A DNA stretch of 40,680 nucleotides from Thermoproteales archaeon (GTDB lineage Archaea > Thermoproteota > Thermoprotei > Thermofilales > B69-G16): positions 1 through 40,680 of the forward strand of contig JAGGZW010000079.1 of assembly GCA_021161825.1 (NCBI GenBank), read 5' to 3'. The notes beneath the pieces were generated by a model. It was given only the letters and a program-made list of their open reading frames with translations. It was not told where the DNA came from and did not search any database. Shown here piece by piece: positions 25,817 to 30,606 of this stretch. Every line of letters starts with the position of its first letter. The first letter of the stretch is position 1. Both the position numbers and the translations under genes were made by a program.

Positions 25817-25935
25817 AAGCTCGCGGCTTTTATTTAGCTTAAACCTGCAATCTTAACGAATTTTTGTTCATTTTGGATAGATTATAGCTGTCTAAAATAT
25901 AATGATATCCGTGTAAGCAAGTTAGGGTATTGAGA

Positions 25936-26604
25936 ATGATGCTTGAAAACTTAGTCAGGTTGATTTTAAGAAAAGTTTCGGCTGAAAAAGAGATTTCGAT
26001 AAGAGAACTTGCAGATAGCTTGGGGATAAGCGAGGGGGAGGTAATGGAAGCAGCTATCGTTTATGGTTTTAATGTGCAAGAAAATAAGATTAAAGTATCT
26101 GATTACGAGGTTTTAATTTTCAATTTGTTAAAAAAGGGATTTAGCATAGAAGAAATCCTCTTTTATCTAGGATGGAAAGAGCTTGAAAGCATATGCGCAG
26201 CTTTACTCTCTTTAAACGGCTTCAAAATTTTAAAAAATTTAAGGTTTAAAAGCGGTGGAAGACGATATGAAATTGACGTCGTAGGGATTAAAGGAGATAA
26301 AATCTTGTTAATTGATTGCAAGAAATGGCGAAGATATCCAATATCAGGTGTTTTAAAGGCAGTTGAAAAACAGCTAGAACGAGCCATTGCATTTTCCAAA
26401 GTTTTAGAGAAGACTCAAGTAGCAAAATTTGTCAATTTTTACAATGAGGTGCTTTTGATACCGATGGTAGTTACGTTAACTGTCGATTTTAAAGGTTCTT
26501 GCCCGATAGTACCTGTTTCAATGCTAAAAGACTTTCTAGATCATTTTGAAGATTTTCTAGATAATATGGAGGTAGTAAAAGTTCGCATTTCAAAGCTAGC
26601 TTAG
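25936..26604 (+). CDS. Mrr-like PD-(D/E)xK nuclease with N-terminal helix-turn-helix
   Basis: 222 residues from ATG 25936 (TTG 25930 and ATG 25939 are alternatives). The N-terminal region carries a helix-turn-helix (ISIRELADSLGISEGEVMEAAI). From about residue 85 a restriction endonuclease-like core appears: GWKELESICAALLSLNGFKI with a Glu, then EIDVVGIKGDKILLIDCKKW, giving the D-x(n)-D-C-K form of the E-x-K catalytic motif. Such proteins cut DNA in repair or in restriction of modified DNA. A box A-like TAAAATATAATG lies at 25895-25906. The TOPRIM gene follows 12 bases later. Substrate unknown; a housekeeping repair role and a defence role are both open. Confidence 0.7.
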   Translation: MMLENLVRLILRKVSAEKEISIRELADSLGISEGEVMEAAIVYGFNVQENKIKVSDYEVLIFNLLKKGFSIEEILFYLGWKELESICAALLSLNGFKILKNLRFKSGGRRYEIDVVGIKGDKILLIDCKKWRRYPISGVLKAVEKQLERAIAFSKVLEKTQVAKFVNFYNEVLLIPMVVTLTVDFKGSCPIVPVSMLKDFLDHFEDFLDNMEVVKVRISKLA

Positions 26605-27448: not shown

Positions 27449-28540
27449 ATGATAATCTTCGCGACAGGAATAAGCGGCAGCCGACGCCTGGACTATCTAA
27501 AAGGAGTTGAAAGACTATCCGAAAACATGGTAGTTAAAGATATTGGCATGCTCATGTTCGAGAAGTCTAAACAACTAGGCATTAACATACCCGAAGGTAA
27601 GATACTAGACTTAGATCCTTTCGCTTTGAACTATCTTAGAGCTGCTATTTTCGAGGAATTGCTGAAAGAGAGGAATATTTATACTGGCGACAACCTTGAT
27701 TTAACGCTCAGCACGCATACCTGTTTTAGATGGAAAAAGCATCTGATACCGGGTTTCAACTTCTATTATCTGAACGAGCTGAATCCGGATTTGTACGTTA
27801 CGATTATAGACAATGTTCACAAGGTGAAGGGGAGGCTTGAGCAAGTTCAGCACTGGAAAGGTAGGCTTAGCATAAAAGACATACTCATATGGCGTGATGA
27901 GGAAATTTTCGTAACTGAAATGCTCGCCCAGTATCAGAACAAGCCATACTATATTATAGCCAGAGACGAGGGACCGGAACTATTGTACAATCTCATTTAT
28001 AGAGTTGAAAAAAGGAAAATGAGAAACGAGAAACCGGCACTTAAAGTTTATCTAAGCTATCCCATAACGCATGTCCAAGAAGAGTTTCTTAAGGAAAAAG
28101 ATGAAATAAAACAACGCTTGAAAAAGGCTGGAATAATAGTGTTCGATCCCATAAGCATAAAAGAGGTTGAACTTCTAGGCTTCGCAGAAGAGGCGAAAAT
28201 GGAGGGAAAAGAAACAATTATAGTAACCGTAGACGATTTCGAGTTCGAGATATCTGTCAAGGAATTGGAAGAAGCTAGAGAGGATATAGTAAACCAAGTT
28301 GTTGCGAGAGATTATAAGTTAATAGAGCAATCCGATGCGATAGTAGTTTATTATCCCGTTACCACGTTATCGCCCGGCGTGCTCAGCGAAATAAACTACG
28401 GCTTTACTCACAACAAGGATGTTTACACGATCTTCCCGCACGAGAGCATAAGCCCGTTCTTCCAATACTATACAACGGACATCTTCAAAGACGTGGATCA
28501 GCTGATAGAGTATCTCGTTGCTCAGGACTATGGAGTTTAA
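27449..28540 (+). CDS. two-domain protein: adenylate-kinase-like NTPase plus nucleoside 2-deoxyribosyltransferase-like domain
   Basis: 363 residues from ATG 27449, preceded by GGTGTGGTG. The N-terminal half starts IIFATGISGSRRLDYLKGVE, a P-loop-like start where the usual Lys is replaced by Arg (GISGSRR), and has STHTCFRWKKHLIPGFNF and LNPDLYVTIIDN in the places of the adenylate kinase nucleoside and lid segments. The C-terminal half from about residue 207 (LKVYLSYPITHVQEEFLKEK) resembles nucleoside 2-deoxyribosyltransferase-like Rossmann domains, ending with LIEQSDAIVVYYP and LSPGVLSEINYGF. Likely acts on nucleotides; pathway unknown. Convergent with the Cys-rich gene, overlapping by 4 bases. 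Confidence 0.6.
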   Translation: MIIFATGISGSRRLDYLKGVERLSENMVVKDIGMLMFEKSKQLGINIPEGKILDLDPFALNYLRAAIFEELLKERNIYTGDNLDLTLSTHTCFRWKKHLIPGFNFYYLNELNPDLYVTIIDNVHKVKGRLEQVQHWKGRLSIKDILIWRDEEIFVTEMLAQYQNKPYYIIARDEGPELLYNLIYRVEKRKMRNEKPALKVYLSYPITHVQEEFLKEKDEIKQRLKKAGIIVFDPISIKEVELLGFAEEAKMEGKETIIVTVDDFEFEISVKELEEAREDIVNQVVARDYKLIEQSDAIVVYYPVTTLSPGVLSEINYGFTHNKDVYTIFPHESISPFFQYYTTDIFKDVDQLIEYLVAQDYGV

Positions 28541-28899
28541 AAGAATGGAATTCTAGCGATTAGCCTAATCTTGTCTTCTGGAGTTTCGAATGGACCTCTT
28601 AAGAGGCAGTAAACTACCGGATTGTTGTCGTGAAAACCATAGAATCCTCTGTGAAGCGGGCATTTCAGGCAAGTCTTGAAATCTATTGTTTTACCCTTTA
28701 GCGAGCAAGGCACGAGCAAGCTTACTTTTAATTTTCTAGAATTTCCCCAAAATCCGCATTTTACTTTGACTTCGGGCCATAAGCCTTCTATACCCTGGAA
28801 AAACGGGCATCTGCTACACTCTTTAAAGCTTGCCACGCCCTTTTTAGGGCATGAATCTACTATCGTGTTTATCGATATTCTCATAACTTTTTCTTTCAT
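28537..28899 (-). CDS. Cys-rich protein with two internal repeats, probable metal binding
   Basis: 120 residues containing two copies of one unit: C-P-K-K-G-x5-F-K-E-C-x-x-C-P-F-F-x-G then V-K-C-G (about 17-49), and C-S-L-K-G-x4-F-K-T-C-x-x-C-P-L-H-x-G then V-Y-C-L (about 65-99). Each has four Cys placed as for a zinc or iron-sulfur site. I do not recognise the family. A minus-strand box A (GCTTAAAGTC, 28929-28938) predicts a leaderless start at 28899. The gene diverges from the helix-turn-helix regulator across a region with TGTCA repeats, so the two may be co-regulated. Confidence 0.6.
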   Translation of the reverse strand: MKEKVMRISINTIVDSCPKKGVASFKECSRCPFFQGIEGLWPEVKVKCGFWGNSRKLKVSLLVPCSLKGKTIDFKTCLKCPLHRGFYGFHDNNPVVYCLLRGPFETPEDKIRLIARIPFF

Positions 28900-28920
28900 G
28901 GTTTCAGCTTCGTGTTAACA

Positions 28921-28969
28921 TGTCAGCTGACTTTAAGCTCTTTGTCAGTAAGATGACAGTTTTAAATAG
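28921..28969. promoter_or_regulatory. TGTCA/TGACA operator-like repeats and divergent promoters
   Basis: TGTCAGCTGAC (28921-28931) contains the perfect palindrome GTCAGCTGAC, and TGTCA-GTAAGA-TGACA (28943-28958) is a second inverted repeat with the same half-site. The box A TTTTAAATAG (28960-28969) for the regulator at 28992 starts immediately after, giving a leaderless mRNA. The first palindrome touches the minus-strand box A of the Cys-rich gene. This is a typical layout for an autoregulated divergent pair. Confidence 0.6.
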
Positions 28970-28991
28970 CGACAGCGTGTATAATTAAGGC

Positions 28992-29891
28992 ATGAGCGGT
29001 GGATTCGAGAACAAGGAGGAATTGCTGCGTAGAATATTCAGATCCGAAGGTAGGAGAAACCTGCTAAGAACAATAGCTCGAGAAAAAATAATCACGACCA
29101 GCGAGCTAGTTAGAAGAACCGGTTTAAAACGTCAAACTGTAGTAGATTATCTTAAAGAATTTGAGGATTTAAAAATTGTAAGAATAAGGAAAAACCAGAA
29201 GCCATGGATAGTTATTGCCAGCAAAGAACTACGTCTTCTTCCATTTGAGGCGAAGCCCGAGGAGAAAGTAATTAAATACAAGTTTTCATGGAAAGATTTT
29301 CCTAATCTCCTTTTTAGAGAGAAAAAGCTTGAACTTGTTTTTGTATGGGGTTCCGGTAGGATAGAGAAAGCCGAGGCTTACGATGCGATAGGTATTCCAG
29401 AAGTCGTTGCAAAGATACTGTCCAAAGCTTTCTCCAAGGGCGTGCCGAGGCAAAACGTCAAGATAATATCAAATACCGACGTTGAAGTAGCCACAAACAA
29501 GAAGCTACTCGGCTCAAACCTGTTCGTTATAGGATCGGGAATAGTGAACTTGCTAACTGCGAAAATAATGGAGGAAATACGTCCACCTATACGATTCGAG
29601 CCTCCGATGGGACGCGAAATCTACTCGGCGATAACAGAAAAATTCTACTCAGCTGGTGAAGATCCCGACAAGTATGCCGGAATACTAGCTCTACTACCTA
29701 ACCCATGGAATTTAAGCAACGTGATAATACTTGCCGGGGGAATATTCAGGCAGGGGACGATGGCCGCGCTAAAAGCCCTAATGAGACACTTGGATGAACC
29801 TGTCTTCCTCCAGCCTCATCCTATCGCGGGAATACCAATAAGAATTGTGAGAGCTGACGAAGATGGAAATTTCACGGGTTTCTTCGAATAA
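28992..29891 (+). CDS. helix-turn-helix regulator with C-terminal domain of unknown function
   Basis: 299 residues. The N-terminal winged helix spans about residues 8-75 (LLRTIAREKIITTSELVRRT, then GLKRQTVVDYLKEFEDLKIV). The C-terminal part contains NLFVIGSGIVNLLTAKIMEE and LPNPWNLSNVIILAGGIFRQ, glycine-rich Rossmann-like strands that could bind a small ligand. I cannot name the family. Leaderless, with box A and TGTCA repeats directly upstream, so likely an autoregulator sensing a ligand. It overlaps the next gene (tatD-like) by 29 bases. Confidence 0.6.
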   Translation: MSGGFENKEELLRRIFRSEGRRNLLRTIAREKIITTSELVRRTGLKRQTVVDYLKEFEDLKIVRIRKNQKPWIVIASKELRLLPFEAKPEEKVIKYKFSWKDFPNLLFREKKLELVFVWGSGRIEKAEAYDAIGIPEVVAKILSKAFSKGVPRQNVKIISNTDVEVATNKKLLGSNLFVIGSGIVNLLTAKIMEEIRPPIRFEPPMGREIYSAITEKFYSAGEDPDKYAGILALLPNPWNLSNVIILAGGIFRQGTMAALKALMRHLDEPVFLQPHPIAGIPIRIVRADEDGNFTGFFE

Positions 29892-30606
29892 TAAAGAATT
29901 TTTTGTAGATGCTCACTGTCATCTTTATGAATTTTCAACGGTGGAAATTGAAAAATTTGGCGAATTTAAAATTTTAGCAGTGTCCGATGATTTAAGCTCG
30001 TCAATTAAAACGATAAACCTCTCGCGTATATATTTGAATGTAATTCCATGTATAGGAATACATCCTTGGGAAATAAACGAGGAAAGCGTTAAGCAGTTAG
30101 AGCGTCTTAAGCAGTTCCTTCCAAAGATAAAATGTCTAGGAGAAATAGGATTAGACAAACGGTTCGTTCCCAAAACGTACAAGCTTCAACTAAAAATCTT
30201 CCAAGAATTCCTAGAAAATGCTAGAAACTACAACTTGATAGTGAATCTTCATGCTGCTGGAGCGTGGAGAGAAGTCTATAACCTCGTCAAGAAATATGAC
30301 GTTAGCAGAGCTATCTTTCACTGGTACAGCGGTCCATTAGACCTACTGAGGGAAATCGTGGACAGCGGCTACTGCATAACGATAAACCCTACGGTGGTCA
30401 TAAACAAAAAGCATATGCAAGCTCTAAAACAAGCAAGTATAGAAAACATACTAACTGAGAGCGATGGACCATATAAATATCGGGGATTCGATCTGAGACC
30501 GGAGCTTATTAAAAACACGATAAAAGTGATAGCTCAGGTGAAAAATATCAACGTAGAACAAGTTAAAAAACAAATATTATACAACTTTAATAAACTGTTC
30601 AAATAG
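29863..30606 (+). CDS. tatD: TatD-family metal-dependent hydrolase
   Basis: 247 residues. The metal-binding motifs of TatD deoxyribonucleases appear in order: DAHCHL near the start, GIHPWEI, GEIGLD, NLHAAG, FHWYSG and ESDGPY. The family acts as 3'-5' exonuclease or related phosphoesterase on nucleic acids. The first ATG (29863) lies inside the regulator gene; the residues before FFVDAHCHL are not conserved, so a later start cannot be excluded, although no later ATG precedes the motif. Confidence 0.88.
   Translation: MEISRVSSNNKEFFVDAHCHLYEFSTVEIEKFGEFKILAVSDDLSSSIKTINLSRIYLNVIPCIGIHPWEINEESVKQLERLKQFLPKIKCLGEIGLDKRFVPKTYKLQLKIFQEFLENARNYNLIVNLHAAGAWREVYNLVKKYDVSRAIFHWYSGPLDLLREIVDSGYCITINPTVVINKKHMQALKQASIENILTESDGPYKYRGFDLRPELIKNTIKVIAQVKNINVEQVKKQILYNFNKLFK

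Follow-up and report, generated by a model that had tools for sequence, protein, structure and literature searches.

A candidate direct-repeat operator between divergent genes for a winged-helix regulator and an eight-cysteine protein in an archaeal genome

In the 40,680-nucleotide stretch of DNA analysed here (the window, contig C79 of a 1.67 Mb archaeal genome assembly, G000), two divergent open reading frames (ORFs) are separated by a gap of 92 bp that spans exactly 28900-28991. One ORF encodes a helix-turn-helix (HTH) regulator and the other a Cys-rich protein. In the initial annotation, the gap was read as two inverted repeats built on TGTCA, placed next to the promoter boxes of both genes and forming what looked like a small, self-contained circuit, perhaps responsive to metal or redox state. 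The question raised by this locus is whether the gap is an operator, which sequence element would form it, and which protein would bind it.

The proposed divergent pair is real, as the two ORFs directly flank the gap (Table 1). In two congeners, G001 and G002, the regulator and Cys-rich genes are next to each other and divergently oriented, as they are in the window. The regulator ORF overlaps the ORF of a TatD-family nuclease at 29863-29891 in the window, and the overlap is also present in G001 and in the Thermofilaceae record JALURF010000064.1; the two genes therefore probably share a transcript. About 28 bp separate the regulator's TATA-like box from its ATG, so the regulator transcript would be nearly leaderless. 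An Rfam scan of 28500-29100 contains no match. Among seven proteins scored with PADLOC, the TatD nuclease scores as QatD (E 2.9e-33) and the remaining matches are weak. Elsewhere in the window, the protein encoded at 25930-26604 has a domain resembling NERD/Mrr nucleases and matches Csx1 weakly.

Table 1. Genes and sequence elements at the regulator/Cys gap (window coordinates)
Feature	Position	Strand	Remarks
Cys-rich protein gene	28540..28899	-	120 aa; two modules C-x10/11-C-x2-C-x16/17-C
TGTCAGCTGACT, window-only palindrome	28921..28932		between Cys-gene TATA box and its start codon
TATA-like box of Cys-rich gene, AGCTTAAAG on minus strand	28931..28939	-	assigned by eye
TGTCAG, direct-repeat unit 1	28943..28948	+	kept in window and two congeners
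TGACAG, direct-repeat unit 2	28954..28959	+	TGTCAG in both congeners; sits at expected regulator BRE
TATA-like box of regulator, TTTTAAATA	28960..28968	+	assigned by eye
CGACAG, degenerate match to third TGTCAG unit of congeners	28970..28975	+	spacing differs
Regulator gene	28992..29888	+	299 aa; N-terminal winged helix and S_layer_C-like C-terminal domain
TatD-family nuclease gene	29863..30603	+	Pfam TatD_DNase E 1.5e-52

Within the window gap, TGTCA is present at 28921 and 28943 and TGACA at 28954. The last two form TGTCA-N6-TGACA at 28943-28958, and a 10-bp perfect palindrome, GTCAGCTGAC, is present at 28922-28931. The palindrome at 28921 also provides an extra TGTCAG, 22 bp (two 11-bp steps) from the next copy. 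In 5000 dinucleotide shuffles of the gap, the three TGTCA/TGACA copies compare with a shuffle mean of 0.245 (P 0.0002), for a pentamer chosen after the fact. In the same shuffles, some pentamer reaches three copies with P 0.50, equally many 5-bp inverted repeats arise with P 0.25, and equally many near-direct repeats with P 0.42. Given these values and the post hoc choice of pentamer, the window repeats, taken alone, are not beyond chance.

The orthologous gaps of the congeners have a different symmetry. In G001 (85 bp) and G002 (94 bp), TGTCA is present three times in a single orientation, with steps of 11 and 13 bp, and TGACA is absent. Their block between the TATA boxes has the direct-repeat form TGTCAG-N5-TGTCAG-N7-TGTCAG. 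Its window counterpart is TGTCAG-N5-TGACAG, and the alignment places congener units 1 and 2 at 28943 and 28954. The window pair looks inverted because of a single T-to-A difference in unit 2, which creates TGTCA-N6-TGACA. The palindrome TGTCAGCTGACT is absent from the gaps of G001 and G002; four of its 12 aligned columns are alignment gaps in each of them, and the majority of the remaining columns differ. The TTAA core of the Cys-gene TATA-like box is conserved in both congeners, and the TATA-like stretch of the regulator falls, by eye, between units 2 and 3. The annotated TGTCA repeats beside both promoter boxes are present in the window, and their inverted symmetry is found in neither congener. 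In the more distant G023 and G005, neither TGTCA nor TGACA is found upstream of the regulator or the Cys-rich gene. In the comparison of orthologous regions suggested with the annotation, the inverted repeats do not survive even among congeners.

Conservation of the gap does not by itself identify an operator. A 22-base block spanning unit 1 and the TATA core of the Cys-rich gene agrees at 18 of 22 positions in G001 and 17 of 22 in G002, above all 300 shuffles in each case. Between G000 and G002, another gap in the neighbourhood, used as a control, is better conserved (24/28 vs 21/28). A third reaches 19/28 against a shuffle maximum of 21 and is not beyond the shuffles, with about half of it compared, on the window side. 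Since a neighbouring gap is more conserved, the conservation of the regulator/Cys gap is that of a promoter region. For repeat content, the commonest hexamer within a single gap has P 0.033 in G002, 0.11 in G001, and 0.07 in G000, whose commonest hexamer is not the one found in the congeners. Each congener gap contains three copies of the heptamer ATGTCAG, with P 0.008 in G002 and 0.0275 in G001.

Motif searches covered the assemblies of G000, G001, and G002, which are 96, 83, and 80% complete and together comprise about 5 Mb; the control was each pattern read backwards. Exact TGTCAG-N4-18-TGTCAG has 1, 2, and 2 matches in the three assemblies, and all five are in the regulator/Cys gap. The backward pattern has 1, 2, and 0 matches (total 3). 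The exact 17-bp TGTCAG-N5-TGTCAG has a single copy in each of G001 and G002, located in this gap. This genome-wide confinement is stronger evidence than repeat counts within single gaps, and the array is carried by these three assemblies only. The search for TGTCA-N4-6-TGACA that had been suggested with the annotation returns 6, 2, and 0 places, compared with 2, 3, and 1 for the backward pattern, and so shows no enrichment in G001 or G002. Neither congener has such a site in its orthologous gap, and three of the five G000 sites outside the regulator/Cys gap fall within ORFs. The inverted repeats were rejected as the operator on the congener gaps and this search. The conserved element, as judged from the aligned gaps, repeats in direct orientation at steps of 11 bp and is not an inverted repeat.

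When one mismatch is allowed, TGTCAG-N5-TGTCAG is present at 14 sites in five genomes, with 7 sites against 1 backward in G000 and 3 against 1 in G002. Six of the G000 sites are beyond the regulator/Cys gap, three inside ORFs and three outside. A few more TGTCAG-type sites may thus exist beyond the gap. These one-mismatch sites did not establish a wider regulon. One G000 site, at C68:486-502 (L032), precedes a 98-aa ORF by about 50 bp and may be a further site of the same regulator.

The regulator has an N-terminal winged helix. Pfam HTH models match the N-terminus of the window protein below their cut-offs (MarR_2, 23.5 bits vs 27), and the G023 orthologue passes HTH_24 (41.7, cut-off 21.9) and MarR_2 (36.9, cut-off 27). 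In the structure model, built from a two-sequence alignment, mean pLDDT is 44.6 and the HTH alone is confident (about 81-88 at residues 21-80). Residues 159-266 match S_layer_C (PF05124) at 19.3 bits, below the Pfam gathering cut-off of 23.9. The window's regulator is 75% identical to that of G001 and 73% identical to that of G002. Two His residues are invariant among the five orthologues. The window protein contains no cysteine, and none is invariant among the five, so direct thiol sensing by the window's regulator is ruled out; this weakens the metal- or redox-responsive circuit of the annotation as far as direct thiol chemistry is concerned. Conserved Cys ligands of the ArsR/SmtB type are likewise absent, and NF033788 scores 16.6 bits against 55. 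Sequence searches of solved structures return weak matches to the eS25 ribosomal protein, glutamine synthetases, and HTH proteins, with a best E of 0.091 in one search and 0.0028 in another.

The closest known architecture is that of archaeal proteins of about 320 aa with an HTH and an S_layer_C domain (for example L060 in G098 and L066 in G182), in which a winged helix is likewise followed by an S-layer-like domain. When the profile of five regulator orthologues is compared with that of 11 chosen family proteins (from 34 loci looked at), the two match over 259 columns with probability 99.7 and E 2.2e-26. The stretches N-L...G...N and N-P-[FW]...G-T-x-A-A are shared. The two-domain architecture can thus be aligned to this family at the level of profiles. 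Unlike these proteins, the window regulator is under the Pfam S_layer_C cut-off, shares 24% identity with them, and has full-length orthologues in 5 of 61 genomes only, plus a fragment in G003. By sequence, the regulator is a divergent relative of the widespread family and not a member of Pfam S_layer_C. Of three family loci scanned, L060 (HTH_5, 44.3 bits; S_layer_C, 43.8 bits) and L066 pass the Pfam cut-offs for both domains and L058 contains no Pfam match. At E 1e-4, the regulator profile matches 99 of 398 phylum genomes. The matches are mixed: some are to the S-layer domain and fall mostly in ORFs of about 320 aa, and others are to the HTH only, many of them in short ORFs.

The duplicated Cys motifs of the neighbouring protein hold up: the four-Cys motif is present twice, and all eight Cys (17, 28, 31, 48, 65, 77, 80, 98) and two His are invariant in five sequences. 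Because all eight Cys are invariant, metal binding is plausible. No family model matches it above cut-off. A fold search with its structure model (pLDDT 58.9, two-sequence alignment) contains no match at E 0.001 or better; among solved structures, a sequence search returns one weak match, to ribosomal protein L32 (E 0.18), and a profile search returns none. At E 0.01 the profile matches 15 of 398 genomes, a draw that did not contain G001. Four matches are clear (G000, G002, G005, and G023) and 11 are weak (E 0.0023 to 0.0097), several of the weak ones in clearly unrelated proteins or across stops. Single-module Cys4 proteins of the Thermoproteota, about 95 aa long (e.g., L044), contain a C-P...C-x2-C-P...C module that resembles each half of the window protein. 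They differ in having one module instead of two and in being widespread (58 of 151 phylum genomes), and the profile link is weak (best E 0.0023). G000 itself contains such a protein, L114 on C78 (1902-2210, protein at 1911-2138); two scanned relatives of L114 have no Pfam or NCBIfam match above cut-off.

Regulator matches at E 0.001 are present in 15 of 61 genomes. Five of these (G000, G001, G002, G005, and G023, from three genera) contain full-length orthologues with E below 1e-90, and the other ten contain partial matches. The Cys-rich protein is present in exactly the same five genomes. With kinship ignored and the G003 fragment left out, the hypergeometric probability of this association is 1.7e-7 by genome and 2.7e-4 by genus (3/3 among 29). 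The fragment, L100 (C164 1-142), is a C-terminal part of a regulator at a contig edge in G003 (77% complete), and the Cys-rich protein was not found in that assembly. Since 3.6 kb separate the two genes in G023, and in G005 they lie on separate contigs, their association is not due to linkage alone.

In G023, the regulator orthologue is located between lplA and two divergent radical-SAM genes (C121, L036, 903-4531), which from their context look like lipS2 and lipS1. In G005, the Cys-rich orthologue is flanked on both sides by moeA-type genes, of which one contains a PBP domain (C75, L040, 885-4539). These neighbours, each a single case, hint at cofactor assembly. At E 1e-20, a relative of the first G023 radical-SAM gene is present in eight of the 61 genomes (G000, G001, G002, G003, G006, G023, G024, and G038). 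It was not found at this threshold in the regulator-bearing G005; G006, G024, and G038 carry it and have no full-length regulator orthologue. In G000, G001, and G002, an lplA-like ORF (named by eye) adjoins the radical-SAM gene without the regulator. The link to lipoate fails this wider genome test and was kept as a lead only.

Local autoregulation is usual for divergently transcribed regulators. We consider it an even chance that the gap acts as a local operator, at which the regulator would repress its own gene together with the TatD gene that overlaps it and would share in the control of the Cys-rich gene. The candidate operator would consist of tandem TGTCAG half-sites, one helical turn (11 bp) apart, between the divergent TATA boxes, and the winged helix of the regulator would bind this array. 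Because unit 2 lies at the expected transcription factor B site next to the TATA box of the regulator, binding would be expected to repress the regulator's own promoter and, with it, the TatD gene. Unit 1, just upstream of the Cys-gene TATA box, could let the regulator co-control the Cys-rich gene, where binding could either hinder or help. A small ligand on the S-layer-like domain would presumably release or alter DNA binding. What is seen directly is how the genes are arranged, that the array exists, that two congeners conserve it, that it is confined to the locus, and that the two proteins co-occur. The small local circuit of the annotation is supported by the adjacent divergent genes in the window, G001, and G002, their presence in the same five of 61 genomes, and exact TGTCAG pairs confined to the gap.

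A partial parallel is YtrASa of Sulfolobus acidocaldarius, a GntR-family regulator that is reported to repress two loci including its own (PMC6746942). As in the candidate array, direct repeats of each half-site are reported there next to the core site (PMC6746942). Unlike in the window, the core site described has inverted-repeat symmetry and covers the transcription start, so that BRE and TATA lie upstream of it (PMC6746942). YtrASa also belongs to a different HTH family from the window regulator.

Three other explanations were weighed against the local direct-repeat operator. The gap might contain no operator, its repeats being promoter sequence and chance occurrences preserved because the genomes share a recent ancestor. 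The window repeat counts, which are not significant after motif choice, the more conserved gap nearby, and the P of 0.11 for the commonest G001-gap hexamer are all consistent with this explanation; the confinement of exact TGTCAG pairs to one gap in three assemblies and the P values of ATGTCAG, with its three copies per congener gap, argue against it, and we consider it unlikely. We regard it as marginally less likely still that the TGTCAG units are bound by another regulator, perhaps one with a more global role, while the encoded HTH protein acts elsewhere. This would account for the G023 and G005 orthologues without the motif upstream, for the excess of one-mismatch sites over the backward pattern in G000 and G002, and for the site ahead of the 98-aa ORF at C68:486. 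The sites of a global regulator would not be expected to be confined as the exact pairs are, which are present nowhere else in the three assemblies, and the usual autoregulation of divergent regulators also argues for the encoded protein.

The least likely of the three is the reading closest to the annotation, in which the regulator, as a dimer, recognizes TGTCA-N6-TGACA and TGTCAGCTGACT as inverted repeats at both promoters. Repeats of this symmetry are the usual preference of winged-helix dimers, a point that counts against a direct-repeat operator. Both symmetric elements are present in the window, and TGTCA-N4-6-TGACA is more frequent than its backward control in G000. Against this, both congener gaps lack TGACA and the palindrome copy, the pattern is not enriched in G001 or G002, and most of the other G000 sites are inside ORFs.

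The circuit itself is ordinary. Among the papers listed by searches of an open-licence library, judged by their titles and abstract openings, none describes an HTH-S_layer_C regulator or the Cys-rich protein. More speculatively, and at rather long odds, the locus would offer the first view of a circuit run by a large archaeal class of one-component regulators that is apparently undescribed. In such a circuit, an S-layer-type fold would act as a cytoplasmic ligand sensor, a tandem direct repeat would be the operator, and a lineage-specific eight-Cys protein would be tied to sulfur- or metal-cofactor assembly; this last tie is drawn because the G023 regulator is near lplA and radical-SAM genes and the G005 Cys-rich gene is between moeA genes. 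The regulator class could matter, as proteins that combine an HTH with an S-layer-like domain are found repeatedly across the phylum. A compact locus with a defined candidate operator would be a tractable place to learn what the S-layer-like domain senses.
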